A stretch of DNA of 64,000 nucleotides from Zygnema cylindricum (lineage: Eukaryota > Streptophyta > Zygnematophyceae > Zygnematales > Zygnemataceae). This document shows, in pieces, positions 5,200 through 60,207 of the stretch (positions are counted from its first letter, which is position 1; every line of letters starts with the position of its first letter). Below the pieces are notes generated by a model. It was not told the origin of the DNA and did no database searches. It was given only the letters and a program-made list of their open reading frames with translations. Both the position numbers and the translations under genes were made by a program. The stretch spans positions 62,001 through 126,000 of the forward strand of contig JBBHKE010002020.1 in NCBI GenBank assembly GCA_037447655.1, written 5' to 3'.

Positions 5200-6170
5200 G
5201 ATACTGTGGGTCCAGATCGCTAGAGCCCTCCGGAAGGTTTTATGAGAGGGTTTCCTCGATCCGCACCTAGAGCTTTGGGATCGTTGGGTTCGGATTGCTT
5301 GAGCCCCCGCGATGGTGGAACTTTTTGCGCTGCAAAAAGAGGCCCTCCGGTTGAGGCTAGAGCAGGTGGTGGGAAAGGTTCCTCTTTGTGAATCAGAATG
5401 AATCTACCTTTACTGTCACGATGGTCAACTCTCTTTCCCTTTCCAGGATCAGGTAATTTCCCCCTGCTGGTTCCCTCTCCTAGGCGAGATCGAGAGGTGG
5501 TGCGTTCGTGGATGGCACGCTAGTAGAGGCGTATTGGAATGAAAACTGCGGTGGACGCAATTTTGGTGCTCTCCAAGGTTGATTCTGTTTGACTGTGAGG
5601 AACTACACTAGAAAGAACTGCTCAAGATTTCCACCACCCCTCCCACAGGTCGAACCACCCGAGTTCGATTTGTCCGGGCCACCTTTTGAACTAACTCCTG
5701 CTTCACCTTCAACTCATGGGGATCATTAAAGGCAAGGAGTTCCTTACGAGCGAACGACGAGGATTTGCTTGAACCGCAAGTTCTATAGGAATTTTTGCCC
5801 TCAGAATCTTAGATCAACTATGGAATCCAACCTCCGAAAGATGGCCACAAAGTGGCTTTCTATGAGCAAACCTCTTTTGTCGGGAAGTTGGGGACACTTT
5901 CCTCTTCTCCTCACCTTGGACCCCAGTAGTCTCGGGGAACTGTCCGAGTGTGATAACGTGAGGAGGTAGAGGAACAGTTTCCTCAGCCGGCCCCTTGGGT
6001 TGAGACTCCAACATAGATGCCTTTGGGACAGATTCCTCGGGCCTGGGAGAACTCGTCCCCGGTGCGAATCCCTCCTCACTACCTTTCTCCTCAGGCTTCA
6101 GACTTGGGTTTCCCCTATCCTGAGCCTCTCCTCCCCCCATTAGATGATGGCAGCTAGAAAGTGTTAGCAA
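5200..6170 (-). pseudogene. Gypsy-II gag N-terminal fragment
   Basis: The minus-strand reading begins near 6,170 with a glutamate/proline-rich leader. It then carries two blocks also present in Gypsy-I: TSRQKRFAHRK (near 5,880) and a helix-rich block (RKELLAFNDPHELKVKQELV, about 5,750-5,690) followed by VVRPVGGVVEILSSS. Frameshifts and stops separate them. I do not recognise a named domain. The conservation between the two copies argues that it is coding. Confidence 0.6.
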
Positions 6171-7456
6171 TATAGAATAGAAATACTAACCCGCCTAACA
6201 CAAAGAGAGATTCCAAAGTCAAAGCTCTATCTCCTCAAATCCGAGTAGACAAGTGGCTTTTTCAGTATTGTGATGATCCACTAGAAGTCAGCCAAATGTG
6301 TCCTCAAAACCCACCGTTCTGGTACAAAAGGTCGTAGCAGTCTGTACCGTTGGAACCGCCGCGGAAGGCCAAAAATAACTACCACAGAGGACAAAATAAA
6401 CTTCCACGCAGAAATAACCAAAAATAAAAAGAATTAGTTATTTCAAATTTAACAATATCACCTTGCCCTTGAAAATGGAATAAAAGATAGAATTAATAAT
6501 GATAGTGAAGCAAGCTCAACATACCCTAGAAAGCCAAGCGGAAACAAAGAGAAGACAAAATATTTCCCGATGGCACCGATGACCGGTACGATCCTCCTTC
6601 ACACCTCGATTTCCACATATCGGAACTAACTAGACTCTCTTTTGTTTCAATGGCAAAATTCAAGATCGCCCAAAATAATGGATAGTGGCGACTAACCACC
6701 CGAACTATGACCTCCAAACAAGGCAAATCCAAACCAAGATGGCAATAGAGTCCAACACTCAAGCTAGACAAAGATTCTCCAAAAGAAGGTTTGTTTGGAA
6801 TTTTCTAAGGGTTTTCAAAGGAGACACTACTGAAAAGCAACCTGTCTTCTTCGGCCCCAAGTGCGTTATACATCAAAGTTTGTGATATTTTAGGTCCAAA
6901 AGTCAAAGCCATGCTACTAACCAATGAGCCGCAAGCAAGTGTAACTGAACTAACATAAGACAAAATCACCCGTACTACACTTGAGGCAAAAAGTTATGCT
7001 CGTGATTGGGGCTAGATCTGCGGCCGAAAGTAATAAATCGTTCCACTATTATAAGGCAAAGTACAAAAAAAAGGACACGAAATTGCCAAACTTTGACCTA
7101 AGGTAATTAATGGACCGAAAGTCAGCTGACCCTGAACTGAATTCCTACTGACAGCTAACAGCTTAATCTAGACATCAATCCGAGAATTTACGTGGCAATC
7201 CACAATGTACCCCCCACAAGGGTTGGCGAAAACTAGTCCCATGGAACGTAATTGCAATCTTCGAGACGGTAGAACTTGGCCATCTGACCTTGGTTAGGCG
7301 CGAAATAAATTGTGTACCGCTCAGGTTTGTAAATATAAGGATCGCGTCTTGCTTGGTGCACTCACTCCTTCGTACTCGTATGACCGTACAAGTAAGAAAA
7401 GGCCCGGAAATTCTTAATAATATAAAGGTGTGCCGGAAACGCACACAAGCTTGACA
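6171..7456 (-). repeat. LTR/leader of Gypsy-II
   Basis: It is non-coding and matches 23,400-24,719. The minus strand starts TGTCAAGCTTGTGTG at the 7,456 end. The internal boundary with the leader could not be set because no standard primer-binding site was recognised. Confidence 0.6.
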
Positions 7457-13345: not shown

Positions 13346-14103
13346 GGCGAAAAAAAAGGAGCAAAATCTCAAGGAACTTTAATGCTTAGTGTTGTCTATA
13401 GCCTATTTCAGCCATGGATTACTCAAGGAAACACCCATTGACTACCCCAAAACAGATGTGTTTCAGACAACACAGATTACTCCACAATATACAAAAGTAC
13501 CTCAAACTCCACCTGTATGCAGTATGTACTGGACACTATAACCTCCCAAAGTAAAAGCCTGATCCACAAATGAAATCCAAAAGATATGAGCTCCAGAGTT
13601 TCCCAAAAACAGTTGACAGCTTATCAAACTAACCAAGTAAATCTCTCTCAGAATTCTACAGAAACAACAGAACAAAATGAAACTACACAACCATATATTT
13701 TCTATATCACAAAACATCCACACAAAGTTTCATATCAAGATATCAATCAAAGTGATCACAGTGACAGGTCAAAGATGCAGAAAAACAGTCTGCCATTACT
13801 ATGATAAACTCAGCTGATGCTGAAAATAAACTAAGTCCTACATTTTATACTCACATAGCTATCTACTGAGCCTTGCACTAATCAAGTTACTACACGTGTA
13901 ACTAAGTACTGTACCCTACTGCAATTGTTGCATCCTTCGACAATTGTTGCATACCCAAACGTGGTCAAGCGGGAAAGACAAATCACAGGGGGGTGGAGCA
14001 AGAAAAAGGGTTGGTGAAATAAATCAAATGGAAAGTGGGTTCGTCCTCCAGTCCTCGAAGATGGCAAGGAGCAACATTGATTTGGTTCTCTTTAATTCTC
14101 TAG
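13346..14103. other. non-coding segment between Copia-V and Gypsy-I pol
   Basis: No convincing gene is seen. It lies 3' of the Gypsy-I stop codon and candidate polypurine tract on the minus strand, so it may be the 3' LTR or flank of Gypsy-I. It shows no similarity that I could see to the sequence at 23,400-24,719, so the assignment stays open. Confidence 0.4.
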
Positions 14104-14109
14104 CCATCA

Positions 14110-14121
14110 TTCCCCTCCTAA
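14110..14121 (-). other. candidate polypurine tract of Gypsy-I
   Basis: The minus strand reads TTAGGAGGGGAA followed by TGATGG. The pol stop codon TAG (14,116-14,118) overlaps it. Its position at the end of pol fits a plus-strand primer site, but no LTR start could be confirmed beyond it. Confidence 0.45.
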
Positions 14122-15210
14122 GTAAAAACCCCCTTGTTAGAAACTTCAACCACTTTTAAGATTACCCGACAAGCATAAATATCTAACGTGTCCTTCTTTT
14201 GTTGCATCCTATAAACAAAATCCTCGGGCATAAACCTTCGCTATTTGGGAACATAATTCCCGCTCCGTCGTTGGAAATACCACAACTGATCCTGGTGTTG
14301 AGCCGACTGTAAATTTCCCATGGCAAGAGGTATCTCACGGTGGAACACTTTAGCTCTATCATAGATCAATTTTTTCGACAGTCCCTTCATCATCCATTTC
14401 CCGAAGAACCACCGCTTGGGCCGAGGCTGCTCCGGGGAGGATGGGATGTCGTCCAAATAGGATGAAATAAGGGCTGTAGGAGTGGAGGGATGCTTGTCGG
14501 CTGAACCTATATTCCATGGCAATCCAAGAAACCCTTCGGTCCCACTCCCCCTGATCTTCTTCGACCACATATTTCCGTAGTGACCGCTTCACTGTTTGGA
14601 CGCACCTTTCGGCCAATCCGTCGCCTTGTGGGTTGTCCCAACTGGTTAGCGGGTGGTCCATGAGGCATTTCTCCAAGAGGATGGAAAATTCTCCGGCAAA
14701 TTTAGAGCCTTGGTCGGTTAAAACCTCCGAGGGCAGTCCAAATTGAGACAACACTCTCTGCAAAAAGGCATCTGCAATGGACTTTGATTCCTTTACGGGC
14801 AAAACCACTAATTCTATCCATTTGGAAAAATGTTTTATCATAACAAGCACGAAGCGATTGTCGGGTAGGCTGGTCGGCATAGGTACCAAGAGATCTAGAG
14901 ACCATCGATAAAACATTCCTCGGATGGGCAAAGAATGCAGCTCGGTTTCGCCCTTTTTGTCGAAAGCTACTTTAACCTGGTCACAGGAAGAACAAGTTTG
15001 TACAATTTTGTTGACCTGAGCCCACAACCCATGCCAACAATAGGATCCAATAACCAGAGCAGTGGTCCGTTTTTGCCCGAAATGTCCACATTGCTGATGG
15101 AGACAGGTAATCAGAGTTTTTCGATCAGAGGAAGGAGGAACCACTTTCCTCGTCCTGTCTGCCCATTTTTGGAAAAGAATACCTCGGTCCTAGTCATACG
15201 CCGCCATACG
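14116..15210 (-). pseudogene. Gypsy-I integrase
   Basis: The N-terminal zinc-binding part is at about 15,120-14,985 (CLHQQCGHFG then CSSCDQVK). The catalytic core begins YRWSLDLLVPMP (first Asp near 14,900), continues with EVLTDQGSKF (second Asp near 14,725), and ends with GLAERCVQTVKRSLRKYV (Glu near 14,615). The 261-residue open stretch 15,144-14,359 holds the core. A frameshift near 14,500 moves the C-terminal part (RAKVFHREIPLAMGNLQ, then YACRVILKVVEVSNKGVFT) to another frame. The DDE residues are all visible. No chromodomain was recognised after the core. Confidence 0.85.
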
Positions 15211-15489: not shown

Positions 15490-16104
15490 TCTGTCGGCAT
15501 TCCCATGGATTTATCTTGCCCATTGGATAATACTAAAATGGTACTCCTGCAATATAAAAACCCATCTCGCGAGTTTGCCGGTTAATTTGCTATTTTCCAT
15601 GATCCATTGCAGAGGCTGATGGTCCGTAATTAAAGTTAAATGGATCCCGTATAAATATAGCCGGAAATGCTGAATCGCCCAAACAACAGCAAAGAGTTCC
15701 CCGTGGTAACTGCTGTAATTTCCTTCGGCTCGGTTATTGCTCCGACTAGCGTAAGCCACTACATACTATGCTCCGGCATCATCCACTTGAACTTAAACGA
15801 CCCTCAATCCAAACCTGCTCCAATCAGTGTAAAGGAGGAAAGGTCTTTGGTTATCGGGCATTCGGAGCACGGGGTGCTGCTTGAGTGCGTCCTTCAAAAA
15901 TTGGAAGGCGATCTGCTGCTCGGTGGCCCACTGCCATTCTTCGTCTTTCCGCAACAAGTGATTTAGAGGTTGGGCGTGACTACTGAACTCGGGATTGAAC
16001 CTTTGGTAATAATTAGCCTGGCCAAGAATGGTGCGTAGAGTTGATATATCTTGAGGTGGGGGAAGAGCGTCCAGAGCGGCCACCTTCACCATATGGGAAC
16101 CCAC
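15490..16104 (-). pseudogene. Gypsy-I RNase H and connection
   Basis: The RT connection reads DISTLRTILGQANYYQRFNP (about 16,050-15,990). RNase H starts at FLLYTDWSRFGLRVV (Asp near 15,815), continues with NYSSYHGELFAVVWAI (Glu near 15,700) and LITDHQPLQWIMENS (Asp near 15,625), and ends near NADRLSRNPD (15,500). Stops interrupt it, but it stays in the same frame as the integrase and the RT N-terminus. Confidence 0.85.
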
Positions 16105-16109
16105 TTTCC

Positions 16110-16880
16110 CGGGGGTTACTTCATGTCAAGGTAAATAATTTTTTGAACATCGAGAATACCTTTACCAGGATGGCATTTCAAACCCGTGTTTCAAGTGCGC
16201 GGAGGACAATCTGGATATGCTCCAGGTGTTCTTCAAAAGTCTTGGAGAAAATGATTACATCATCAATATAGCACCTGGCACAATGAATTCCTCGAAGGGC
16301 TTCGTCCATCGCCCTTTGGAATTTTGTCAGCGCATTCTTGAATCCGAAGGGCATGTATATTCACTCGTATAACGAAGAACCTGCCCCAAATGCCGTTCTC
16401 TCGCGGTACTTTGGTTCCATGGCAATTTGGTGAACCTGTTCTTCATATCAAAGGTAGAGTAGATGGTGGCCCCCAAAAGAGAGTTGAAAATCTCTTGTGG
16501 GGTTGGCATCGAATACCGGTCCAGAATAGTAGCCGTGTTGAGCATGCGCTAAACCCCACACATCCGAAAATCTACAGTTTTCCCTGAGGCATCCTTCTTT
16601 GGAGGAAAAACGGTTGGGGAAGCGAACCCATGGAGTCCGGTGCTTTCCTTAACCAACACAGCTTCCACCAAGGTCTGCACTTTGGCGATGATAAACTCTT
16701 TTTCCTTAAAACTGAGAGGATACTGCTTCTGCCAAACAGTTGCCGTCTCATCTATCACGTCAATTCGGAAAAGAGTTCATTTGTAAATAACGACATTTGT
16801 TTCTGACCTAGAGAATACCTGTTTTTTTCTTGCTAACAGCTCCGATAACTGAGCCTTTTGTTGAGGATCAAATTGCTCCC
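16110..16880 (-). pseudogene. Gypsy-I reverse transcriptase
   Basis: The N-terminal region is DPQQKAQLSELLARKKQVFS (about 16,865-16,805). YPLSFKEKEFI... SPTVFPPKKD... VDFRMC (16,720-16,555), LNTATILDRYSMPTPQEIF and YSTFDMKNRF follow. The YIDD catalytic box is the complement of 16,259-16,270 (ARCYIDDVIIFSKTFEEHL). The YIDD segment sits in a different frame from what precedes and follows, which implies a pair of compensating indels between about 16,400 and 16,105. Confidence 0.87.
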
Positions 16881-17149
16881 CTAGTGTCCAATCCATTTTC
16901 CCTGGCTCCACCGCTGCCCATGCTTCTGGGGGTCGGCCCCATCTAGTAATATCAAATTCGGATCCTACTTGTGGGTCTACTTTTTCCCTTCCGTCCTGGA
17001 CCCTACTGTTGACAACTTTTGCTAAGCTCTTCTCTTCTGAGCAGCCGCCTTCCCCCACTAGAGGGACTCTCAGATGGGAGATTTGAATTTTTCTTCTCTC
17101 TCTCCCCCCCTCTAGTTGCCAAGTTGCTTGCATTGCCAACAATTTAGGA

Positions 17150-18180
17150 GCTTGAAGGTAACTATTTAGCTTCTCTCGAGAGTGGAGACTTGAAAAGGCA
17201 AGAGCATGTTTGATAACCCATGTGATTTCGTTGAAGTCCATGATCTGTCCGATAAGGCTACATCTTTGGGGTTCGGAAATACCTGGTGCAGCCGTGGTGT
17301 ATGGGTAGAATCCCATAGCTTGTTCCCTTTCTGCAATTGTTGGTTTTGTCGATTTTCCTGCGATACTGTCAAATATCATTCCGGCTGCCCCTTTCGAATA
17401 CGCGTGGCTGTTGGGGAAAGAGACCAAGGGCAGAAGGGCTCTGCATGGAAATCCTAGTTTGTTGCATTTGAAGAAGGGAGAACGGTGTGTTTTTGTAACA
17501 AGGGTGGCCATTCGACCTTTTTCCGAGATTTGTTGTACCGTATTGTTTGGGTCTGGAATCCGCCTGTCCATGAGTTGCTTGAGGAGGTGAATTTGGATCA
17601 AATTGGTCCAATAAGCCCTTACCCTTTGGGCCCGCGATCCCAACTGTGCCGCATTGAAAACCAACGGGATTCCTAAAATCTAGACGACTTATTTCCAACT
17701 GTCCGCTACATGTTGTCGCCGCTCATCCCCCGGGTGGACATTCTCCAAAACATACCTACTGGTGTGTCTTGGAGCTATTCTATCTATGATATTACTTGTA
17801 TCATCTGGAACAAAGTCTTGCTTCTTTGGTCTGCATGTCCTTTTCCTTGTCTTACTAGGGAGTATCTCTGACAAGGCCATCCAGCTACCACCAAATCTAC
17901 CCTTCCCAGATTGGCTATGTATGGGGTCATGATATTTTCCACGTTTTGAGGTAGGCTTCGGTGAGCTTGGGAGATTGCTGACACAGGGAGTTGTTGAGGA
18001 TATAATTGTTGAATTTGGTGCAGGCGATGCTCGCTGACGGCTCATGCTTCAGGTGATATTTCCACAGCCGTATACGCCTCCACTATGTATTCGCTTTCAA
18101 AACCGCTTCCAACTCAGTGCTGATTCCCGAAAATAATGATACAATCCGGAGTCCAGAATCTGGGATTCTCAGTGACACCA
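17150..18180 (-). pseudogene. C5 cytosine DNA methyltransferase domain within Gypsy-I
   Basis: Canonical C5-methyltransferase motifs occur in order on the minus strand. Motif I is RIVSLFSGISTELEAVLKA (FSGI at 18,133-18,122; family consensus GIGTG, here GISTE). Motif IV is DLVVAGWPCQRYS, with the catalytic PCQ at 17,876-17,868. Motif VI is SRYVLENVHPGD (ENV at 17,745-17,737). Motif VIII is AAQLGSRAQRVRAYWTN (17,655-17,605). A target-recognition stretch follows (MATLVTKTH...), then motif IX-like AEREQAMGFYPYTTAAPG and motif X-like SLIGQIMDFNEITWVIKHAL (to about 17,185). The 295-residue open frame 17,664-16,777 runs from motif VIII into the RT N-terminus, so the domain is part of the pol polyprotein between protease and RT. 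Two frameshifts (about 18,080 and 17,800) and in-frame stops disable it. The sequence style is DRM/DNMT3-like, but the subfamily is not decided. The expected role is cytosine methylation of DNA; whether host or element DNA is the target is inference. Confidence 0.88.
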
Positions 18181-18550
18181 CCTGTCGGTTGAACTTCCCA
18201 TCTTGGGACAAGATTTCCGAAGATTCTGACGGAAGAGTTGAATATATCTTATTTGGTGCTATAGCTGTAAAAGCCTTTTCCACTCCTTGCCGAAGTGCTG
18301 CCATCTGAAATAATCGGTCTTGGTATCCCTCTTCCCACCGCTTGGAAATAAGGAATTGGTATATCTCGTTGGCAATATCAAGTGAGTTGGCAAAAAGTTG
18401 CGCCGGAGAGGATGTGGCATATACGGGGTAACAGCCGGACATAGGCGCATTTATCTTTCCCCTATTCCATAATCCCAAGGGAACCACCACTTGGGTCCCT
18501 TCGGGCTCTTGGGGGTCCCTCACCGTGAACTGCTCCTTCCACACACTTTA
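18181..18550 (-). pseudogene. Gypsy-I segment upstream of methyltransferase motif I
   Basis: An open 153-codon stretch (18,544-18,083) begins about 135 residues before motif I. It includes NSLDIANEIYQFLISKRWEEG and GKFNRQVVSLRIPDSGLRI. It joins protease to methyltransferase and could be an N-terminal lobe of the latter. No domain was recognised. Confidence 0.6.
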
Positions 18551-18900
18551 CTCCATTTTAAGTCAGGTCCAAGTCGCCATCCCAAGTTGAATCTCGAACT
18601 GCTTCCCTTCCACCACTAGGAAGGGGAGCTAGATTCGGACTCGTTGACCCGCATCATCTGAGAATTCAATTTCCATAGCTTTGATGATTTCATAGACCGG
18701 TTGAATTCTGCTGCTAATTGTACTCAAGTAGATGTCGCTTGGTAACATTTCTAGCCGTGATTCCTCAAGCATCTGCTGTAAAGCAGAAGTTGTTATTAAA
18801 TTTGGAAGCGCACCGGTATAGACCACTACATCCTGGTAGCCCCCGTATCCGTTGAGTTTGAAATTTCCGGTCTAGTTGAGGATGAGGGCCACCGATAAGG
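18551..18900 (-). pseudogene. Gypsy-I aspartic protease
   Basis: A retropepsin-like active-site segment reads VVYTGALPNLITTSALQQ (18,826-18,770), preceded by TGNFKLNGYGGYQD. The family active site is D-[TS]-G; here Tyr replaces Asp (TAT, at 18,820-18,818), which would abolish activity. A downstream strand-rich region (IEFSDDAGQRVRI) and EGKQFEIQLGMATW follow, consistent with the rest of a retropepsin fold. Confidence 0.7.
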
Positions 18901-19199
18901 CCTTGTAATCCCTATCCGTCATAGGGGTCTTGGGTTCTTAGGATAAAAAGACGAAATTGGATCGATTTGCTAGCCGTACTTTCTCCTTTCCCAAGTGGAT
19001 TTCCTCTCCCAATGCCTGAATATAGATATCTTCTGGCAAATTGTGGGACGAGGCCAGAGTTTTGACATGTGTGAGGGCGTAGGGCATTAGGTGTCGGACT
19101 AAAATAGCAGATGATTTGGAGGAAAGAGGCGCAGCATTAGGCGGTTTAATGGGGGTACTCGGCTCTTCCGTTTTCTCCTACTCCCCCCCCCTTACTTCC

Positions 19200-20118
19200 T
19201 CCTCTTCGGCATCCGAACCTGGCGTGGGAGGTGTCGCCTGTGTATCATCCTCTGGGCCTTCTGCCATGAACCGTTCAAACTAGTATTGGGTTTTCCGCTT
19301 CTCGTCCTCTTTGGCTTGTTTCTCTCTCTCCCTTTGTTTGTTAGTCTTGTATTCTTCGAATCCTGGCGGCAGTTTCTTCACAACTACTGGGGGAGGATTT
19401 GTAAGTTTTATTCCTAGGTCAGTGTCGTTATTTGGTATTATTGTCCGGGGAGTGAATGACAATGGTCTAATGATCTTTCTGTTATGGTCTCTCGGGGCCT
19501 GTCCTTCTCGATCCCTCCTTTGCTCCGATGTGGTGTTGCGGAGTGGTCTTTGATTATCTCCCACTCCCACATTCCAGGCTGTCAACTGAAAAGTTCGTGC
19601 ATGGTTAACTTTGGGAGGCATCATATCCTATCCCATGATGTCATCATCGTCCCAAGTTGCCGTGGCTTGTTGTTCAAGCCCTGCTAGCTTTTGTAAAATC
19701 TATTGTTTTCTCCCTTGGAGTTTTTGAGCAGGCATCAAAGCAGCCGGGCGGGAGGAAGACTTTAAACGTAAGGCGGCTAATTTTGAATCCATCGCGGCAA
19801 ATTGCTCGCTTTGATGTTGAATTATCTCTTCCGATGTACGGGGTGCTCAACCTGCCAATGTTCGTTCGAGTTCCTCCATTGTGCGGCGTCCTTAGTGGTA
19901 AAGGAGCTGAAGATGGAGAGGATTCACGGTAGCTGCCCCTTCACCGGTTAACAGGGCTTATTGCATCATCTCATTTGGCACCCTATTCTTTTGGAAACAT
20001 TGCCCCTATTTGTGTCAGAGGAAACCGCAGGCCTCACATTTGGAACCCTCGGTAGTGTATTTGCTCCATAACTCATTAGAAATCTTGGCGTCATCGAATT
20101 TTGGAAAATTTATTAGTC
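19200..20118 (-). pseudogene. Gypsy-I gag-protease linker
   Basis: A charged, low-complexity reading frame includes an open 114-codon stretch (19,624-19,280) rich in Arg, Lys, Pro and Asn (EYKTNKQREREKQAKEDEKR). It probably links nucleocapsid to protease. There is no catalytic motif. Confidence 0.5.
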
Positions 20119-21450
20119 TCAACTAAGCTTGAGACATTTTGGACGTTTCGAACCGGGAGTTGGGCGGTAATTGTCCTTTGTTACTAGTATTTTGTCCTCT
20201 GATCCCCCTCCCTGTTTCCTTTCGTTTTGCTTCTGGATTCTTTCAGCCCTTTCTTTTTCCCGTTCCTCATGTTTCAGAGCGAGTTCCGGTTTGAGTTTCC
20301 AAGGGCATCGTTTCCACCCATGGCCGTTCTGCTGACACTTCCAACAATTATACAAAATCATCTTGTCATCCGCCCCCATCGCGGGTTATAATCCACTATC
20401 AGCTGCCCGTTCTCCTTTTAGCTTCCGCAAAGCTTGGAGTTCATCCTACTCTTCACTGCTCAAAGAGGTTCCTCCGGCAAACCCGGCGAAATTTGCTTTG
20501 GCTTTGCCTGTGACAGCCTTTTCACCTCCCTCACTTTTGACAAAGTTGTCGTACAGTTTCATGGCTGCCAGAGAGATTTCCTTAGCCGAGGGGTTAATGT
20601 CTTGGATTGCCTTCCTTGCGATCCAGTTATCCAGAGAAGCGTGCCAGGTGGGTCTGAACGAATTTTGTAAAGCGATAAAGTACTTGGTTGCCATTGCTGG
20701 AAGATCAATAGTTGAGAGCTTTCTTTTCTGGTAAACACTCGATAGCCTATTGAAAAGGGTCTGAGGCGTCTCATTCTTCAAGTTTCGGAAGTCCGTGAAT
20801 TCCTTGATGGCGGACTCATTTCTCTCAGTATAAAAAAGTCTACAAGCGTCGAGTAGTGTGGTGTAGTGGGTGGGGTTGGCGATCATTCGAGTGGCATCCT
20901 AGGCTGCGTGAATAGCTTGCAGTTGGTTAACGTAGGCCCGACCTTGGGCTTGCAGCTTCATGTCCTCGATAAAGGCAGGAGAGACAAGAGTGGCAGCCGC
21001 TGAAGCCAAGTCGGCTTCCGCTTGTAAAACAGCAGCATCGAGAGTCGGGTCGGAGATTCTGATGCTAAGAGCCATCAAGGGATGTTGCCGTTCCATGTAA
21101 TCCGCCAAAGCACCCCCAGAGATATGGTTGACCATCATGAGGAATTGGGTAGTCTCGAGGTCATCCGGAATAACCCCTCCCCGATATTTGTTCATTTCGG
21201 ACTAAGTGAAGGATTTCCACAACAGTTTGAAATCTAAGAATGCAATTCCGAAATTATCCCCCGTAAATATTCGGTTGTCTCCCATCTCTTTCCCCTCCTC
21301 CGCAAGGTAAGTGAATTGGGGAGAGTGAGGCCTAGTGGGAGTGACAAATTGCGCCGGTGAAATCACCCCTTGCTCTTCGTTTTCGGATCCGGTATCGCCT
21401 ACTTCTCCGACAGAAGTAGCAGCTTGTGAAATGGCCACTCTCCCCCCCAC
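20119..21450 (-). pseudogene. Gypsy-I gag, capsid and nucleocapsid part
   Basis: One reading frame runs from 21,450 to 20,119, interrupted only by stops at 21,202-21,204, 20,899-20,901 and 20,446-20,448. It includes a helical capsid-like region (FRNLKNETPQTLFNRLSSVY, about 20,800-20,740). The zinc knuckle CWKCQQNGHGWKRC near 20,350-20,300 has the CX2CX4HX4C spacing of retroviral nucleocapsids. The knuckle is intact. Loss of frame is by nonsense codons, so this part decayed less than the methyltransferase. Confidence 0.8.
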
Positions 21451-21512
21451 CGAGGAAGTGCCTGGTTATGAAAAAATGGTTGGGGGGTAAATGTCTCCCC
21501 TAGGTAATTCTC

Positions 21513-23390
21513 TTATCCCCCGAGTTGCGAAGGGTCTTGACGATCGCCGACTTCTCCTTTCCGATGGGATTTGAAGATCCAGTCTGTTTGGAGGTGTTCC
21601 TTTAGATGACTAAGAAGACGCGGATGGTGAACGACCTTGCTTGGGATACCGGGATTGCCCCATAGCAGTGCGCCCAAAAAGAGGAGAAAGAAGTTGTTTA
21701 GAACTGGATGATTGAGAACGTCGATGAGGTGGCGAATATGCCGAATGGAAGTTTTTAGTCGCGCGGCAGTGGCAAGTGATTCAATTGTCAACCATAGGGG
21801 CCCTATAGGAATATCTTTGGGATCTTCTGCAAGTCTCGAGGCTTGAGATGAAGTGAGCGGAGGAGGAGAGGAGGTAGGATCAAGATTTTGTCTAGAAGGC
21901 GGCGGAGGAGGAGTAGCTGGTCTCAAAGGGATGTGGATCCTTTCGTTTGGCCGTAATTCCACCAGAGCCTCCACAAGGGAGAAGATCTCCACAGATACAA
22001 AGGTAGGATGCTCCCGAGAGATAGAAGCGAACTCAAAAGGTAGATCTGCACCGAAACCCTTTTCATTAGGTCTCGTGATTCTTACCCCTCCCCGCTGAAG
22101 AGGAAGATCTTGTGGATTCCCAGATTGAGTCTTCTTAGGGTGAGACTTGGAGACTTGAGCGGCTTCCCTTGTGGGCTTCTAGATGTAAGGATTAAGTATT
22201 GGAGAAGTAGAGACCTGCTCCCTTAGAAGTCCTCCGGACCTAAGCCGTGCGTCCCTTATCAGTCGCAGTTCTTGTTCCCATACTTTCTTCCTTTCTTCCT
22301 CTAAAGCCTCCCAATCTATTTCGACAGGTCCGGCCCCTTTCGTTGCCCCACCTTAAGATCTCAACTTCTTTACCAATTCCTGAGCACTGCTCAAAACTCG
22401 AGTTAGATCTCCCACCTCTAAACCTGGTGCCTTGGGATCTGTTGGTTCGTGTCGCCATAGCCCTCCGGAAGGGCGATCTGTGGGATCCTTGGGAAAGGAT
22501 CTCCCCCATTCTACACGTGGAACCTCGGAATCGGGTGGTTCAGATTGCCAAAGCTCCACAAGAGGTGTACCCTTTGGGATTGCTGAGGTAGGCCCTCTAG
22601 TCAAGGCGGGAGCAGGTGCTGGAATTGTTTCCTCCTTGGAAATAGGAGCAAATCTACCTTTACTATCACGGTGGTCGAACCGCTTCCCCTTCCAAGGATT
22701 TGGAAAGTCCTTCCTCCTGCCCCCTTCTTCAAGACGAGATCGAGAGGTGGTACCTCCTTTGGGTGGCCTGCTGCTAGATGTGTTGTTAAAGAAAGATTGC
22801 GGCGGACAAAATTCTGGGGCTCTCCGAGGTAGACTTTGTTCAGATGGTGATGAGCTACATCCAGAGGAACTGCTCAAAATTTCCACTACTCCTCCCACGC
22901 GTCTAACCACCCGAGCTCCATCGGCACGGGCCACTTGTTGAACCAACTCTTTTTTCACCTTCAACTCATGGAGATCATGCAGAGCAAGAAGTTCCTTACG
23001 ACCAAGACGACGGGGATCGGCTAACACCGCAAGGTCTATTGGAATCTCGGCCGTGGGAATCTTCGATCAGGTATGAAATCAAACCTCAAGCAGATGACCA
23101 GTGACAAGCTCCCTATGGGCCAACCGCTTTTGTCGGGAAGTGGGAGTCATTTTCCTTTTCTTTTCAGCTTGGGCCCGGGCCGCTTTGGCTAGAGAGGGGA
23201 ACTGTTCAAGGGTGAGGACCGGAGGAGTCGGAGGAACGCTTTCCTCGGCCTGTCCTTTGAGTGGAGATTCAAACATGGAAGCCCCTTGGACTGCTTCCTC
23301 AGGCCTGAGAGAACCCCCCCCAAGGGCAGACCCCTCCTGCCTACCTCCCCTGCAAGCGTAAGGCTGTGGGTTACCCTATCCTAAGCCTCT
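21513..23390 (-). pseudogene. Gypsy-I gag N-terminal extension
   Basis: One frame from about 23,390 to 21,513 carries stops at 23,079-23,081 and 22,353-22,355. A frameshift lies between 21,512 and 21,450. It contains TSRQKRLAHRELVTGHLLEV, a charged helix RKELLALHDLHELKVKKELV, VVRRVGGVVEILSSSSG, long Pro/Ser/Gly-rich stretches, and a more hydrophobic part with SIRHIRHLIDVLNHPVLNN (near 21,750-21,690). Over 600 codons before the capsid is unusually long for a gypsy gag. It may be a separate additional protein. It is conserved in Gypsy-II. Its function is unknown. Confidence 0.6.
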
Positions 23391-23399
23391 CCTCCTCCC

Positions 23400-24719
23400 A
23401 TCGGATGATAACCACTAGAAACAAGAAGTAATATAAAATAAGAAAATCTAACCACCTTCCACTAAGAGAGATTCCAGAGTCAAAGCTCCTATCTCCTCTA
23501 ATACGAGTAGACAGGGTTGTTTCTTTTCAGAACTGTGCTGATCCTCTAGAAGTCTAACTTTTGTACCCTCAAAACCCACTGTTTTAGTATCTAAGATGTG
23601 AGAAACCGATTCCGGAGGGAACACAGCAAAATCCAAAGAGAACTACCGGCGGAGGACAAATGAACTTCCACGCGAAAAATAAAAAAATAGAAATGATTGG
23701 CAGTTTCAGATTTAACAATATCACCTTGCCCCAAAGAATGGAATAAAAGATTGAATGAAGAATTATGGCAAAGCAAGCTCAACATACCGTAGAAAGCCAA
23801 GATGACACCAAGGGAAGACGAAATATCTTTCAGCGGCACTGAAGACCGGTACGTTTCTCCTTCACCACTCGGTTTCCGCAGATCGGAACCGACTTGACTC
23901 TTCTCGGCTTCAATAGCAAAAAGTCAAGATCGCCTTAAAGGATTGATTGTGCCAACTACCCACCCGAACTACGATCTCTAAACAAGACAAATCCAAACCA
24001 AGATGGCAATAGAGTCAAGGAATCAAGCACAACAAAGATTCTCTAAAAGAAGGTTTGTTTGGAATTTCTCTGAGGTTTTTTATAGGAGACAGTATTGAAA
24101 AGCAACCTGTCTCCTTCGGCTCCAAGCGCCATATACAACCAAGTTTGTCTACTTCTGGTCCAAAAAGTCAAAGCAAAACAAGGAACCAATCAGCGGGAAG
24201 CAAATGCTATCGAACTAACAAAAGAAAAATTTAGTTGTACTACCCTTAAGGCAAAAAGTTGTGCTTCCAGTTACTGCTAGATTTCCGGCTGAAAGTCAAA
24301 GTTTGTTCCACTTCATTAGGACAAAGTACTGAAAATGACGCCTAAACGCCAAATTTTGACCTGATCTAATTAATGGACAAAAAGTCAGCTGGACCTGAAC
24401 CAAATTCCTACTGACATAAGACAGCCAAATCTAAATGACTAATCCGAAGGGTTACGTGGCGTTCCACAATGTGACCCCCAAAAGGTCAAGTGGCAACTGG
24501 CTGCATGTAACATAATTGAAATCTTTGAAGCGGAATAACTTAGCTTTATGTCCTCCGTTAAACGCGATAAAAATTGCATTCCGTTCAGTTCAAAAAATCC
24601 CTTGATTTGGTCCGGTTCCGTGTACCTCCTCTGCCAAACGCTAATGTCCGAACAGGTAGAAAGGGTCTTGAAGATCTTGGGTAAATAAATGTGTGCCGAA
24701 AACACACACGAGCTTGATA
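23400..24719 (-). repeat. 5' LTR and leader of Gypsy-I
   Basis: This non-coding stretch is homologous to 6,171-7,456, block for block. The minus-strand terminus is TATCAAGCTCGTGTG at 24,719 (TGTCAAGC in the other copy). The LTR/leader border is not set. A plain iMet 3'-end site (TGGTATCAGAGC) is not present. Confidence 0.6.
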
Positions 24720-29344: not shown

Positions 29345-30565
29345 ATATATTGACATCTTTTATCCTCTATCCTCCACCCTTTATCCTCCTCCCTCCTCCC
29401 TCCATCCTCCATCCTCCCTCCTCCCTCCTCCCCCCTCCCCCCTCCCTCCTCCCCCCTCCCCCCCCTCTCTCCCCTCTCCCCACTCTCCCTCTCCCCCCTC
29501 CCTCCTCCCCCCTCTCCCCCCTCTCTCCCCTCTCCCCACTCTCCCTCTCCCTCCCTCTTTCCTCATTTGTCCTCCCTTTGTCCTCCGTCCTCCCTCTCCC
29601 CTCTCTCCCCTCTCTCCCCTCTCTCCCCTCCCCCTCTCCCTCCTCTCCCTCCTCTCCCTCCCTCCTCCCTCCTCCCTCCTCCCTCCTCCCTCCTCCCTCC
29701 TCCCTCCTCCCTCCTCCCTCCTCCCTCCTCCCTCCTCCCTCCTCCCTCCTCCCTCCTCCCTCCCTCCTCCCTCCTCCCTCCTCCCTCCTCCCTCCTCCCT
29801 CCTCCCTCCTCCCTCCTCCCTCCTCCCTCCTCCCTCCTCCCTCCTCCCTCCTCCCTCCTCCCTCCTCCCTCCTCCCTCCTCCCTCCTCCCTCCTCCCTCC
29901 TCCCTCCTCCCTCCTCCCTCCTCCCTCCTCCCTCCTCCCTCCTCCCTCCTCCCTCCTCCCTCCTCCCTCCTCCCTCCTCCCTCCTCCCTCCTCCCTCCTC
30001 CCTCCTCCCTCCTCCCTCCTCCCTCCTCCCTCCTCCCTCCTCCCTCCTCCCTCCTCCCTCCTCCCTCCTCCCTCCTCCCTCCTCCCTCCTCCTCCCTCCT
30101 CCCTCCTCCCTCCTCCCTCCTCCCTCCTCCCTCCTCCCTCCTCCCTCCTCCCTCCTCCCTCCTCCCTCCTCCCTCCTCCCTCCTCCCTCCTCCCTCCTCC
30201 CTCCTCCCTCCTCCCTCCTCCCTCCTCCCTCCTCCCTCCTCCCTCCTCCCTCCTCCCTCCTCCCTCCTCCCTCCTCCCTCCTCCCTCCTCCCTCCTCCCT
30301 CCTCCCTCCTCCCTCCTCCCTCCTCCCTCCTCCCTCCTCCCTCCTCCCTCCTCCTCCCTCCTCCCTCCTCCCTCCTCCCTCCTCCCTCCTCCCTCCTCCC
30401 TCCTCCCTCCTCCCTCCTCCCTCCTCCCTCCTCCCTCCTCCCTCCCTCCCGCCTCCCTCCTCCCTCCTCCCTCCTCCCTCCTCCCTCCTCCCTCCTCCCT
30501 CCTCCCTCCTCCCTCCTCCCTCCTCCCTCCTCCCTCCTCCCTCCCTCCCGCCTCCCTCCTCCCTC
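29345..30565. repeat. (CCCTCCT)n heptanucleotide satellite, about 1.2 kb
   Basis: The + strand is almost purely pyrimidine. The first 300 bp are mixed CT-rich variants (ccctct, ccccact). From about 29,650 to 30,565 the 7-bp unit is nearly perfect, with a few 3-4 bp phase slips (for example near 29,761, 30,088, 30,353, 30,444, 30,541). Long open frames on both strands are artefacts of the repeat, since 7 is not a multiple of 3 and the unit holds no stop. The G-rich minus strand (AGGAGGG)n can be expected to form G-quadruplex or triplex structures. Confidence 0.95.
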
Positions 30566-34300: not shown

Positions 34301-37300
34301 ACCGGCCAATCAGAGTTACCCTTCACGGATGAGTGCGAACAACCAAATTCGCCATCTGTGAAAGTGCCCTCCATCCAGTAGAATCTTAATTGCAGACTAG
34401 TCCCACTTTGAGGGTCAAACACAGAAAACTCTCGGTTTCCATGAAACTTTCCAGTAAAACTTCCTGCAATAATAGACAATGGTAGAAGAGGGGAAAGTCA
34501 GATAAAAAATGATACTCAATAAAGAAAACCTGACGTCAAATGTTTTGGTAACAGTCTATTCACAGAACCTATCGGTCATGCGTTTTGATAGATGATTACA
34601 ACAGACTTTTAGCAGCTGAAACAGATCATGCTACACTGTGAATCGCTATTAGGGTTAAGAAATAATTAATGTAAAGAAACAATTAGTATTACTATCTCTA
34701 TTTTGGCTTATTAAGGCTAATTGTGATTCACGGTGTAGTTGATCTTGCAGGTATTGGTTGGACACTATTCTTGCTATTCTGTTGAACCACCCAAAGACAA
34801 TTCTTGTGAAGCAGTGAAAAAAAGGTGCAAAGATGTCTTTATATTTCTACATACAAAAAGGGAAAAAGAATTTGATTTAGGAACTATAACAATCAATTTG
34901 AACATTTAATTTTCTAGCAAAAAATTGTAGGAATTCACCCACGAAAAAACATGAAATTTTTTTTGGGGCTAATAACACATTGCCCAAATCAAAATTTGAA
35001 TTAACGATCAAATTTAGCTTTGGCCACATAATATTCAAATCATCTGTTTTAGTGTAAGTTCACATTTAAGATGACCCACAGAATTTGTTGAGCCAAACTC
35101 AAAGAATAACTACTTTCAATTAGTATGTACCATACTCAACTTTCAATTATGCGAACCATTTTGCCTGGTTAAAGATTATCCTCTCCTCCCAAAAAATTCA
35201 GCTCCACTCCACTTACAAAAAATATTTCTTGGGAATAAAAGGAATTACTTTAAAACGACCATCTCTAAAAAGGGTCCACAGAGCTTGAGAAGAACCAATG
35301 CCAAACAACAAAGTACATGCTTTACCCATTTGAAAAGTACACTCAAGATTGGTATGTACCCTTGCAACATAGTCCTCCCTCTGTCATTCTCGGTCTATCT
35401 GTCTCTCTCCCTCCCTCTCTCGCCCTCTCAGTCTCTCTCTCCCTCGCCCTTTACCTCACCTTCACCCTCCCTCCCTCACTTCTCAAACATCATCTGGCAC
35501 GGATCCATCTGATCCCGAACTCATCCTCATCTGGCACCACATCCGCCTTCCCCTTCCCCTCCCTCCCCCCCCCTCACCAAATTCATCCACCTCCTCCCTC
35601 TCCCCTCCCTCCCCTTCTCCCTCACTCCTTCTCTTCTCTTTCCTCTAGTTGAGCCACAAATGTTCTCACCCAGCAATTGAGTGACTTATGATATATACCA
35701 TATTGATGACCATATATCCAAATCAGAAGTGATCACCTTTAAGTAGCATATGAAGATGTGTAAAAAGAGCCCGTTGATGCGAGTCTCCCACAACAGATAT
35801 CTCCCGAATGCCTCGTTGAATTAAAACACTTGCAAAATTGTCCAATGATTGCAGTTGACCTACACATGCATAAGGCTGGAACTGGAGGTAAGGTCGGCTA
35901 GAAGGTGGAGGAATTCCATGAACCCTATATCTTGTCCTGAGATCCACGAGGAGATTTCGTCCTAACCGAACCTTAAGATTCAAGCTCCTGACAGATTGTT
36001 CGTTCACATCCCGTCTGTCCACCCAGCGTCCCACGTGTCCTATAGTGCATGGTGTTTGAAGTGTCTTCTCCTCATATTCCTCTACCTCCACCTCCAACAT
36101 AACCAAACGTCGGGAGGTCGTGCCGCCAGTCCCTTCTTCCCTGACAATTTGAAACACAATGAAGCATCACCACGATTGCTATGTAGAGTTCATAAGCACT
36201 TTCCTACGAATTTTCCAAGGTTCTTTTCCAAGGTTACTAGGACATTTTTAGAAGTTTTCAAGGTAATTTGTGGTTTTTTTGGGTTATCTAGGGTGTGACA
36301 TCGCATTCTCGAGAAGAAGACATCAATAACTGGTCCCCGGTTAAGTCATGTTGGTGTCATTCTGTCAATTTTTAGACACACAAAGAACTTAACAAACTCT
36401 AAATGTGTCTTTCATAGCCCCGTTATGTAATGGAAAGTTACTCACGACTTGTGAGTAAAACTTAAGTGCTAATACACTTTGATTTTTTGACTAACCGTGG
36501 GATACTCACATAACTGTAAAATTGCTTACAAAATGCAAGCTATTTTGATAGTGTAATCAAGCTTTCAAAAAATAAAGGTCCCTTGACTTAAAGCATCACA
36601 TTGGAAGGCCGAAAGAAAGGATGCCGATGATCTCATTTCTCCCCTTCCCTTCTTTTCTTGACCTTAAGACTTACAAGCAACAGTCGCAGTCGATGGTGAG
36701 AATGTACTTGCCAGCATCCCATGTTTGATAGCTGACATCAAAAGAAGAACCACTTCCTTCGAAATTCAATGAGCTGGAAACTGAACCATGCACAAGGGCT
36801 GGGCCTGGACAAACAAAAAATGACAAGTTATCACCCAAATGATAACAAAAGGGTAAAAGACTGCAATTATGAACAATCGTCGTCAGCATTTTTAAAGTGA
36901 CTACCATGCAATAGCATCAACAATGGCATTAAATTTCAAGCATAAATTGGAAGTTCCAGAACAGATGACTTGGACAAAGTGGTCACAAGTCATCAAGAGT
37001 GGTACAAGGCCAGGAGGAAGTCAATATATTCGACCTGTGCTCATTGTGGGGTTTAAACGATAAGCCCTAAACATGCAATCGTCTAAAAATTCGTTCAAAC
37101 GTTTAAACCTTGTTTCAGTTGTTTAAACATCTTTTCACCGTCAATTATAAAGTCACAAACAGATGTGAAACATTGAAACTCCATAGACCTTGATAAAGTT
37201 GTCCACATCACTTTCATTCAGTGGAACTCAAGCAATAAATTTCAACATTCATATTTGTATCTGTGGAATTTCGGGTTTGGCTTCAAAATTCAATGACATT

Positions 37301-53580: not shown

Positions 53581-54049
53581 TATTATAAATTAGTGTTGTG
53601 CATCAAGAAATTTCCTAATGTGATAAATTCGATCAATATTTCGAATATCGAACAACAAATATCTATACATATCACTCAAGGACTTAGAAAGATTATTGTT
53701 ATATGTTTGGTGGGAGGTGGGCGTCTGTACGATTACAGTACAACTATTAAATAAAGAAAAATTTATACTTTACACTTTCCCAAGATAAATAATGGTACCT
53801 TTAAAAAAAGACCAGTCTAAGAAGAGAATAGATTATCGGACATGTAAATGTTATGTGTCCCTCAACAAGGCCTCAATATTGGACAAATATTAAATGTCGA
53901 TCCCAATAGAAAATTTTGACATATTGGTAAGAGTTGAGGCCATATATTTGTTAAACATTTGCCAAATATTTCATTTAATTTGGCCAAATCTAAATCATCA
54001 CGAGAGATATAATTTTTGAGCAATAGATCAACTATACATTTGGCTTTAT
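53581..54049. other. unique A/T-rich DNA
   Basis: I see no gene or repeat structure here. Confidence 0.4.
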
Positions 54050-54550
54050 AGACCTTTTGGATTTAAAAACGTAGGAGTTAGAGTCGAGAGGGTCGTGGAT
54101 GAGGCCCTTTAAAGCCTAAAATAGAAAGCGCAACTTGCTATGTTGATGACGTGATTATTTCTTTACAAATTATTGGGGAGCATCTTTGACACATTAAGAT
54201 GGATTAATACGTTTTGCGGGTGGTCGGACTTAAGTGTCAACATGGTTTTTATCAATTTGGGGTGGAAAGAAATTGTACCCAATTGCATGAGGTCACTCTC
54301 GAGACATTGAGCCCTCACATGGTAGAGATTCCAACCCTTGATGCACTACCCACCCCTTTCGATATACGTATGCTCCAAACATTCCTTTTCAAGATTGTGA
54401 ATTATCATAGAAGGTTCATTAAAAGTTATAGCAAAGTTACCCAGCTCTTCAACTAGCTCATTTATAATGACAATGAGAGATTTTGGGCAAGGGAACGGCA
54501 TAAGCCTTTAAATATTTCAAAGGGGTTGTGAAGACTCAATTGAGATTGTC
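54050..54550 (+). pseudogene. Gypsy-III: RT fragment of another Ty3/gypsy element
   Basis: The plus-strand reading includes PFGFKNV near 54,055, ATCYVDDVIISLQ (YVDD near 54,139-54,150), EIPTLDALPTPFDIRMLQTF and VNYHRRFIKSYSKVTQLFN (54,360-54,455), then AFKYFKGVVKTQLRLSD. This is the RT palm to RNase H connection of gypsy pol. Frameshifts and stops break it. It is unlike Gypsy-I in sequence and orientation. Confidence 0.8.
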
Positions 54551-55868: not shown

Positions 55869-58800
55869 CTAGTCAATCTTTAATTTCAGACCACACTTCT
55901 CCCTGCAAAAAATTAGCTTAGGGGAAGGCACAGGTTTGGTCATCATATCTGCTACCATCTCACTATCTGGTCTGTACTCTAAACTGATTATTTTGTTTTC
56001 TACTTTCTCTCTAACAAAGCTGAGTCTGATGTCCATGTGTTTGGCTTTAAAATGGTGTTTAGGATTGGCAGAAATAGCGATCGTTGCCTGATTATCACAA
56101 AATTTTTTCTGCACACCACTCTTAAGGTGACCAAGCTCACCAAGCAAAGACTTGACCCACATCAATTCTTTTACAGCAGAGCAAGAGGCCATATACTCAA
56201 CCTCCATGGTGGACTGAGCAATAACCTTTTGCTGTTTGCTACTCCAACAGCAAGCCCCATCACCCACATATAATACATATCCAGAAGTACATCTCCTCAT
56301 CGGAGCATCACCATAACTGGCATCACTCCAAGTAGTGATGTCAGTATTCTCCCCACCCAAATGCAACCATAGATCTCTAGTTCCTACCAAGTATATAAGG
56401 ACTCTCTTAGCTGCCTCCCAATCCTTCTTAGTGGGAGCATTTAGACTTCTACTCAGCACTCCTACAGCTGCAGCTAAATCCGGCCGGGTACAATTCATAA
56501 AATAGATTAGACTTCCCACTACTTGCCTGTAAGGAATAGTCTGCATGAACTTCTGTTCTTCAGGATATAATTCCTCGTCTAAGACTATGACTCCTTCTTC
56601 CTCACTCCCCTCACTTCCCTTCTTCAATTCCATTGGAGTTGTAGAACTATTAGCTTTATCCATTTGAAATTTTTCAAACATGTTCCCTATTGCTTCTTTT
56701 TGAGTCAATCTTATAATTTTTCTTTTTCGGTCTCTCTCTACTTGAATTCCCAAAATATATTTTGCTTCCCCCATATCCTTCATTTCAAATCTCCCCTTAA
56801 GATCGGTTTTCAGTTTATTAATTTTTTCCATTGATTTACTTAAAACAAGCAAATCATCAACATAAATTGCAATAAATATAAAACCTTCCTCATCTTCGAA
56901 AACATAGATTGAGTGATCTCAGCTGATCCGAATATATCCTAGACCGGTAAGAAACTCATCAAGCTTCTTATTCCACTGTCGAGGCGCCTGTTTCAAACCA
57001 TAAAGAGATTTAATCAGCCGGCAGACCTTACTCTCCTCTCCTTCTTCCACAAACCCTTCGGGTTGTCGCATGAAGATCTCCTCTTCTAATTCTCCATGCA
57101 AAAAGGCTGTTTTGATGTCCATCTGGTGCACTTCCATGTCTTCCGCCGCTGCTAAACTGAGAAGTATGCGGACGGAGGGAAATTTGACCAACGGGGCAAA
57201 GGTTTCCTCGTAGTCAATTCCTTCCTTTTGTGTAAATCCCTTTGCCACTAATCTGGCCTTGTAGCGCTCGATTGTGTTATCTGGGTTCAGTTTTAGTTTG
57301 AAAACCCACTTACAACCGATTGGTTTTCGGTTAGGTGGACAGTCCACCAGCTCCCAAGTATCGGCTGCCATGATTGAAGCCATCTCCTCATTGATGGCTG
57401 TCTTCCACCGGTTTCTTTCTGGACAAGTCATCGCCTCTCGATAAGTTTGAGGTTCATCTTGATGAGATAGTTTAGTTACCTTGTTATTAACCTGTTTTTC
57501 TTGCAGTCTTCTGCTACTTCTCCTCCCTCCCTCAAAATCTGAGGCCGGAATAGATGGTTCTCGTGGATTCTTTCGAACAAACTCGGCTTCTCCCCTATCC
57601 CTTGATATCGAATCAATTTCCACCACGTCTTCCGCTTCGAGTAGAGTTGTCACTAGAGTTTCCACAGCCGAGTCCTTTTCGGTCTGATTTGTTCCTGCAA
57701 GAATGTCATCGTCTCTAAAACCTGGATAGTTAGGAAGCTCAAAGTCATCAGAATTTTCTGACTCAAATCTGATTTTTACTGACTTTGTATATTTGAAGGG
57801 ATCCACAGACTTTCCTTCATCCATAACTACTAGATGCTTTACTAAGATTATATCTTCTCTTTTTAGATCATAAACTCTATATCCTTTAACATCCTCATCA
57901 TATCCTAATAAGTATCCCGGTTTTCCTTTAGGATCTAGCTTCCAATTGGACCGATCAGTATCTAGACTGAATACTTGACTGCCGAATACCTTTAAATGAG
58001 ATAAGTCTGGTTTCCGGCCTGTCCATCTCTCATAAGGTGTTTGATCTTTTATAGCTGAAGTAAGAACTCTATTTTTGAGGTAATTAGCACAGTTCATTGC
58101 TTCTGCCCAAAACCTTTTTCCTATCTTCTTATCCGACAACATACTTCTAGCACTATCACTTAGTGTTCTATTTAACCTTTCAGCTACCCCATTCTGTTCA
58201 GGATTTTCTGGCACTGTCTTTTGGTGTTGAACCCCATCTTCCCTCAAAAAATCCTCAAACTGGTTAGAAGTATACTCTCCACCATTGTCACTCCTTACTC
58301 TCTTGATTGGAGTTTCATGGAGTTTTTCGCTCCATGCTTTATATTGTCTAAAACAGTCCTCAGCCTCTGACTTGTTTTTCAAAAAATATACTCGGGAATA
58401 CCGAGACCAATCATCAGTTATAGTCATCATAAAACTCTTCCCCCCCGGTGAGGGCACTCTAGCCGGTCCCCAAATATCTGTGTGTACTAGATCTAGAAGT
58501 TTTTCTCCCTTGTAGGTGGCTGTTTTTGGAAAGGGTAATCTGTGTGCTTTACCTTGAGCACACCCACTACAATCACTTATATCATCACTCTCACTGAACT
58601 GAATCCCTTCCACCACTCCCATCTTTTTCATCTCTCTTAACTTATCTAGATTCACATGCCCAAGCCTCTTATGCCACATCATAATATCATGAACACCAGC
58701 ATAATAAAGTTTCTTTGTTTCATTACTTAAGATCAGCCTAAACATCCCATGGCTACCTTTCTCAGCAATGAAATAGACATCCTCCTCAAAACTAGCAGTA

Positions 58801-60203: not shown

Positions 60204-60207
60204 AACT
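60193..60207 (-). promoter_or_regulatory. primer-binding site, half-tRNA type (Copia-I)
   Basis: AGTTATGGGCCCACC directly follows the LTR (one mismatch to GGTTATGGGCCCACC). It overlaps the first gag codons. Confidence 0.78.

Follow-up and report, generated by a model that had tools for sequence, protein, structure and literature searches.

A decayed Ty3/Gypsy element of Zygnema cylindricum with a DNMT3-type methyltransferase in pol, and its relatives in green algae

A methyltransferase domain between protease and reverse transcriptase

The window analyzed here is a stretch of 64,000 nucleotides from the genome of Zygnema cylindricum, and positions given without further label refer to it. Its minus strand carries, from about 24,464 to 13,940, one decayed Ty3/Gypsy element in which a terminal repeat, a long gag, a protease, a DNMT3-type methyltransferase (DNMT), a reverse transcriptase (RT), RNase H, an integrase and a PHD-finger remnant follow one another. 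The element was mapped piecewise by tblastn using the proteins of a copy with an uninterrupted Pol (L034, on contig C1374). The gag of L034 matched 23,336-19,976, its protease 19,174-18,362 and its Pol 18,358-13,992, with identities of approximately 60% to 80%, or 43% to 50% in the gag N-terminus. The following features were assigned:

23,629-24,464, minus strand: left terminal repeat (A repeat), diverged (blastn to the A repeat of C1374; 24,257-23,629 at 73%, 24,464-24,390 at 72%)
21,930-23,336, minus strand: gag, N-terminal half (tblastn to L033 290-2329, 43%, and L034 1-1131, 50%)
19,976-21,504, minus strand: gag, C-terminal half, with a CCHC-like knuckle at 20,346-20,305 (CWKCQQNGHGWKRC) (tblastn to L034 1135-3282, 61-67% identity)
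18,362-19,174, minus strand: aspartic protease region (tblastn to L034 3976-4812, 70%)
18,359-18,361, minus strand: site of the stop conserved in relatives, TAC in the window copy (comparison with relatives)
17,200-18,154, minus strand: DNMT3-type C5 methyltransferase, motifs I to X, in three frames (PF00145, tblastn pieces, motif positions)
16,558-17,199, minus strand: linker between methyltransferase and RT (collinear tblastn with the L034 Pol)
16,069-16,557, minus strand: RT (tblastn, collinear with L034 Pol residues 601-763, where RVT_1 lies)
15,541-15,930, minus strand: RNase H (PF17919 in ORF 15,793-16,125, PF17917 in ORF 15,511-15,765)
14,683-15,138, minus strand: integrase, H2C2 and rve core (PF17921, E 2.5e-12, and PF00665, E 1.7e-8, in ORF 14,359-15,189)
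13,940-14,387, minus strand: integrase C-terminus and PHD-finger remnant (VWVCNNC, 13,960-13,940) (tblastn to L034 Pol 1340-1471, 80%; translations)

The Ty3/Gypsy domain order, protease-RT-RNase H-integrase with an rve core, is thus present by Pfam and tblastn. DIRS and PAT elements have a tyrosine recombinase in place of the rve integrase; this identity was ruled out by the rve integrase, and no recombinase domain was among the Pfam matches of Pol. The gag C-terminal piece with the CCHC-like knuckle had no Pfam match. A gag of more than usual length, as proposed in an initial annotation made from the sequence of the window, was recovered on C1374, where a frame opening with an ATG extends over approximately 1,130 codons before a TAG is reached; the single TGA inside it is absent in both other copies seen there. 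Gags are usually shorter. The PHD fingers of L033 and L034 are weak (E 0.0002 and 0.004, respectively, below the Pfam cut-off), and neither matched the C4HC3 pattern.

Run on the window methyltransferase, the PF00145 profile matched the piece at 17,784-18,041 on the minus strand (E 1.5e-6, 28.3 bits, curated cut-off 22), which contains motif IV; three other pieces of the methyltransferase tried singly gave no PF00145 match. Motifs I (LFSGI, 18,136-18,122), IV (GWPCQ, 17,882-17,868), VI (YVLENV, 17,754-17,737), VIII (QRVRAYWTN, 17,628-17,602) and X (LIGQIMDFNEITWVIKH, 17,256-17,206) lie in the unrearranged order, in three frames overall, and the catalytic cysteine is present. With the protease upstream and RT, RNase H and integrase downstream, these results agree with the initial annotation, which had placed a cytosine methyltransferase in the pol of a Ty3/gypsy element. 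The Pol of L034 aligned to the window in three collinear pieces in different frames (18,358-18,089, 18,101-17,754 and 17,754-14,368; 61% to 69% identical by tblastn), which indicates two frameshifts inside the window methyltransferase. After these, one frame runs through stops to the integrase, as the same annotation had stated. It had also assigned both motifs VIII-X and the RT N-terminus to a single open stretch; the stretch (16,777-17,679, 300 aa) ends at approximately residue 527 of the L034 Pol and RVT_1 starts at residue 601, so that it contains the linker preceding RT and not the RT domain proper. The window copy is dead, because its methyltransferase is spread over three frames and the Asp motif of its protease is lost (D-T-G in L034, Y-T-G in the window, at 18,820).

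The domain is predicted to be a DNMT3-class enzyme

We classify the domain as DNMT3, a predicted C5 cytosine methyltransferase, because of its PDB sequence matches and its fold matches. In the PDB sequence search, family A (the window's own family, described below; searched with the L034 homologue) matched human DNMT3A with an E-value of 8e-14, and family B, a second family of the same genome, with 5e-10. Plant DRM2, which is DNMT3-related, was matched by family A with E-values of 0.005-0.006 only, and the alignment was confined to Pol residues 67-192. When modeled with AlphaFold2 (pLDDT 86, pTM 0.86, from 15 aligned sequences), the family-A domain had DNMT3B and DNMT3A as its best PDB matches (E 5e-18, target TM 0.82), the 50 matches listed being 20% to 24% identical. 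NCBIfam returned the general dcm family alone, below its cut-off. Vertebrate DNMT3A, DNMT3B and DNMT3C share the fold and the unrearranged catalytic motifs with the domain (32% identity over the aligned DNMT3A fragment), but are stand-alone host enzymes with other regulatory domains. DRM2 differs in its rearranged motif order (PMC5890265).

Two families of the element in the same genome

A PF00145 search of the genome (352.8 Mb in 2,689 contigs) found at least 123 places among 782 candidates. Because all 123 places scored exceed the cut-off in the same genome, the methyltransferase match in the window is not due to chance. Among the best 30 PF00145 loci, 29 were the same kind of element; the exception (L007) is an intron-flanked exon that looks like a CMT and is presumably of host origin. 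In these 29 loci, which reach 1.5 kb past the match, a protease was found upstream in 28 and RT downstream in 24, with the full protease-DNMT-RT order in 23. Twenty-three loci make up family A and 6 family B, and the methyltransferases of the 2 families are approximately 40% identical. Open frames of 1,520-1,525 aa were found for the family-A Pol and of 2,395 aa for the whole family-B polyprotein, which is a single ORF with no stop between protease and DNMT; no PHD finger was seen in the 2,322 of these 2,395 residues that were examined. Over 6,228 bases, two copies of family B from different contigs share 99.9% identity, which may reflect recent activity or, possibly, a duplicated piece of the assembly.

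Conservation of the domain was analyzed in 108 sequences: the 29 loci of this genome and 79 of 82 DNMT-bearing public proteins (3 were too short and were dropped). The catalytic Cys is present in 104 of the 108, the motif VI Glu in 106 and the first motif VIII Arg in 105; one of the 4 domains in which the Cys was not found has a gap there. Immediately before the Cys, motif IV has Pro in 40 domains, Glu in 60 and another residue in 8, with Pro-Cys in all 23 family-A loci and Glu-Cys in all 6 family-B loci. To our knowledge, this Pro is near-universal elsewhere, and Glu-Cys might mean that catalysis is changed or abolished in its bearers. For the DNMT, dN/dS had a median of 0.11 in family B, where 4 of 15 pairs among 6 copies could be estimated. 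In family A the median was 0.21 over 12 copies (28 of 66 pairs) and 0.26 when the 9 copies free of stops were taken alone (15 of 36 pairs), and dN/dS of the family-A RT was 0.15 (3 of 6 pairs), all without a neutral control. Only copies with at least 85% of the domain were used, and a pair was discarded if its sites were too few or its synonymous change too small or saturated. The low dN/dS, the order found in 23 of 29 loci and the uninterrupted ORFs of 1,520-2,395 aa bear out the earlier proposal of a polyprotein domain rather than a captured host fragment.

A conserved in-frame stop codon precedes the family-A methyltransferase

An in-frame stop between protease and DNMT was present in all 22 unique readable family-A loci besides the window (TAG in 21, TAA in 1; L010, with an unreadable junction, was left out), and the window copy has TAC at this site. 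The codon after the stop is CAA in 20 of 22 loci and the second codon TTC in 20 of 22, both together (CAATTC) occurring in 19. Protein sequence is conserved on both sides of the stop, and in 21 of 22 loci no other stop lies within the 50 codons viewed. The type I readthrough motif of plant viruses is UAG-CARYYA (PMC5382211), with which UAG-CAA-UUC (19 of 22) agrees except for the last base, the 22 copies being kin and not independent. Folds downstream of the stop differ among four copies.

Judged from its placement, the stop would cause DNMT, RT and integrase to be made together, at a low level, as an extension of Gag-protease. It could instead be an ordinary termination signal, with Pol started independently by internal initiation or from a spliced or edited mRNA. 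The first Met of the L034 Pol, at residue 19, is compatible with such a start, but Pol lies in the same frame, its codons are conserved up to and past the stop even in sub-lineages whose DNMTs are 38% to 53% identical to that of L034, and a start elsewhere sits poorly with the recurrent CAATTC; we therefore regard an independent start as unlikely. Readthrough is the reading that we prefer for family A, and the family-B frame without a stop indicates that low dosage by readthrough is not needed across the whole lineage.

Split repeats at the ends of the elements

The left end of the elements is repeat A, of 1,186 bases, which starts with TGTC. At the 10 right ends examined, the arrangement B1-A2-B2 was found in 5, B alone in 2 and no match in 3. 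The B repeat ends with GACA, two bases separate B1 and A2, and the A2/B2 junction varies among copies, C507 keeping approximately 325 bases of internal sequence. On C1374, the element has a B of its own, and the B1-A2-B2 found 3.7 kb further out could represent another, truncated copy. In the window, the left repeat alone was recognizable by blastn; between 8,000 and 28,000 no direct repeat of at least 40 bases was detected, and plain long terminal repeats at both ends were not found. In five copies with both ends read, a search for target-site duplications gave a match of 4 bp (ACGT) in C507 and of 3 bp in C1870, and none in C1920, C1374 and C544. Two inverted A repeats, 99.5% identical and 3.2 kb apart (L041 1-790 and 4,007-4,797, contig C544), sit at the left end of a family-A element.

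Relatives in other green algae have the methyltransferase at two places in pol

A protein search with the DNMT part of the L034 Pol returned 22 proteins, including Klebsormidium nitens P0017, Chromochloris zofingiensis P0016 and Haematococcus lacustris P0021, and one with the RT-integrase part retrieved 1,153, the best 120 of which add Closterium, Pleodorina and Monoraphidium among those named. For six Closterium proteins, the best-scoring matches listed to the loci of this genome and the window are 32% to 48% identical. In a set of 136 proteins from both searches, 23 have the DNMT before RT (layout I; Klebsormidium, Closterium) and 54 have RT before the DNMT (layout II, RT-RNaseH-DNMT-integrase-PHD; Haematococcus, Pleodorina, Monoraphidium, Chromochloris); 4 are DNMT-integrase, 1 is DNMT alone and 54 have no DNMT. 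Fifty of these last 54 have fewer than 600 residues upstream of RT, too short to tell absence, and P0083, P0105, P0116 and P0123 have more than 600 residues there without a detectable DNMT. In this genome the protease-DNMT-RT order is complete in 23 loci of 29. The initial annotation had named gypsy relatives without the domain at this position as a sign of a one-off insertion, and this condition holds in part: P0083 and P0116, of a sister RT lineage, and P0105 of Klebsormidium show no detectable DNMT in at least 600 residues upstream of RT, and a large clade carries its DNMT elsewhere in pol.

The RT tree was made by a quick method from 130 rows (127 of the 136 proteins and 3 of our own; 9 proteins with a missing or short RT were dropped). 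Layout II occupies one side of a branch (SH-aLRT 99), and layout I is not one clade and needs 4 changes. P0083 and P0116 fall in a separate clade of six, a sister RT lineage, and P0105 groups with P0017. Since the set was chosen by similarity to L034 and includes two outgroup rows on long branches, the picture of one lineage is partly built in. DNMT trees split both layouts with supports of 98/97 (26 rows) and 100/99 (39 rows, consisting of 35 of the 82 proteins, 3 of our own and the DNMT3A fragment); when this fragment serves as outgroup, the root falls inside layout I (86/77), on a very long branch. A small integrase tree does not separate the layouts (3 changes, weak support), which argues against a simple history. 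P0017 groups with the window's family in the DNMT tree (98/97) and in the RT tree (98/95), and weakly outside the group in the small integrase tree. A protein search aimed at a host DNMT3 gave 6 matches, none a recognizable cellular eukaryotic DNMT3: 4 are retrotransposon-like, and P0141 and P0142 are short and, by reading, bacterial- or phage-like. A scan of viral contigs found 11 loci, 25% to 37% identical.

A tentative history, to which we give slightly less than even odds, is that of one green-plant-wide Gypsy lineage spanning streptophytes and chlorophytes. DNMT3 would have been a core replication enzyme in it since before or soon after their split, would have changed place once in pol, leaving the interval between protease and RT for the one that separates RNase H from integrase, and would have changed from Pro-Cys to Glu-Cys in over half of the compared members, the window's family dosing the enzyme by stop readthrough.

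Comparison with known retrotransposon methyltransferases

A DNMT3 in a Gypsy pol has been known since 2018 from KnitGypsy-Dnmt3 of K. nitens (PMC5890265). This is the closest known system, and the concept of a retrotransposon-borne methyltransferase is, as the initial annotation had stated, not new. Likenesses are the DNMT3 inserted in a Gypsy pol, purifying selection (Ka/Ks <0.2 there) and repeats, said to be DIRS-like there and split here (PMC5890265). K. nitens P0017 has the order DNMT-RT-RNaseH-integrase and groups with the window's family in the DNMT tree. KnitGypsy-Dnmt3 differs in its host and in its DNMT, which is 42% identical over 55% of the query, and the elements described here differ from it in the conserved in-frame stop before the DNMT, the PHD-like end, the long gag and the Glu-Cys family B. 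The available portions of its description say nothing of a stop codon ahead of the DNMT, and the term "phd" does not occur in the main text (PMC5890265). What goes beyond KnitGypsy-Dnmt3 is the stop between protease and DNMT, the two pol layouts including chlorophytes, Glu-Cys in 60 of 108 domains and the split terminal repeats. We found neither chlorophyte Gypsy-DNMT elements nor the second layout, the PHD or the stop codon described in the accessible text of the matches listed from the open-licence PMC literature, PMC10952607 included. SymbioDIRS-Dnmt3 and SymbioLINE-Dnmt of dinoflagellates also have cytosine methyltransferases within retrotransposon ORFs, but DIRS and LINE are unrelated retrotransposon classes (PMC5890265).

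A proposed model: methylation of the element's own cDNA

We propose, with a probability of roughly 0.6, that the window holds a dead copy of the KnitGypsy-Dnmt3 kind and that live family-A copies make the DNMT by UAG readthrough, package it and methylate their own cDNA. From the observed domains and their order, the conserved stop, the low dN/dS and the conserved catalytic residues, we infer readthrough, packaging, cDNA as the substrate and a benefit. Ribosomes on family-A transcripts would make Gag-protease and halt at the UAG, and a minority would read through it into DNMT-RT-RNaseH-integrase-PHD. With a conserved readthrough stop, the methyltransferase would be produced in the same small amounts as RT and integrase and would enter the particle with both. 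The packaged enzyme would then methylate double-stranded cDNA of the element itself, either ahead of integration or during it, and the new copy would arrive with the host's kind of CG mark. Methylation of cDNA was first proposed for DIRS elements (PMC5890265).

The methyltransferase could also act on the host genome or on older copies: together with the integrase, and aimed by the PHD finger, it would methylate the target site and silence rivals or soften harm to the host. Integrase and a PHD-like end do lie on the same polyprotein, and layout II sets the DNMT beside both, but with the weak PHD of family A and none in the examined part of the family-B ORF we hold this to be improbable. Somewhat less probable still is that the domain is now structural or nucleic-acid-binding and has no catalysis. 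The Glu-Cys of 60 of 108 domains, the 4 in which the catalytic Cys was not found and the K. nitens Gypsy DNMT, which gave no methylation in yeast, a result that its authors call inconclusive (PMC5890265), are in line with such a role. However, the Cys, the motif VI Glu and the motif VIII Arg are nearly invariant, which is beyond the needs of binding, and de novo CG methylation in yeast has been observed for the retrotransposon DNMT3s of Symbiodinium (PMC5890265). A one-off insertion or a chimeric assembly, which the broken state of the window copy might suggest, is practically eliminated by the homologues in other algae and by 29 separately placed loci from two families, of which 23 have the whole protease-DNMT-RT order.

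Cytosine methylation is the host's means of silencing transposons, and an element in which such an enzyme is maintained by selection reverses the usual story. The finding of related copies both in this genome and in other green algae suggests that the DNMT has long been kept as a working part of the element, and its presence in chlorophytes and in a second pol layout suggests a durable lineage and not the curiosity of a single alga. By tying enzyme dosage to RT and integrase through the conserved stop, family A makes the cDNA-methylation idea directly testable. For annotators, counts of PHD and DNMT genes in such genomes may include retrotransposon parts. Strain SAG 698-1a is reported to have at least 9-fold more PHD genes than its relatives (PMC9915684); if that strain is this host, retrotransposon PHD fingers may cause the excess.

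Other repeats and reading frames in the window

A second, shorter relative lies on the minus strand at 5,265-7,161, with an A-like repeat (7,161-6,369, approximately 70% to 72%) followed by a gag-like stretch (6,143-5,265) that is 30% to 31% identical to the gag of L033 and L034; no further part was matched. On the plus strand, 53,723-54,501 is an RT fragment of the same Gypsy lineage, 40% to 46% identical to L034 Pol residues 575-831, and the same tblastn reported no DNMT match there. Long ORFs of 349 and 852 aa, which we take from reading to be Copia-like, occur at 55,872-60,233 on the minus strand and elsewhere, with many Copia-like fragments, and much of the window looks like nested retrotransposons. 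The ORF at approximately 35,726-36,166 (minus strand) resembles what we take to be part of a host gene of the PC-esterase kind. At 29,385-30,565, approximately 168 copies of the 7-base unit CCTCCTC are open in several frames on both strands.
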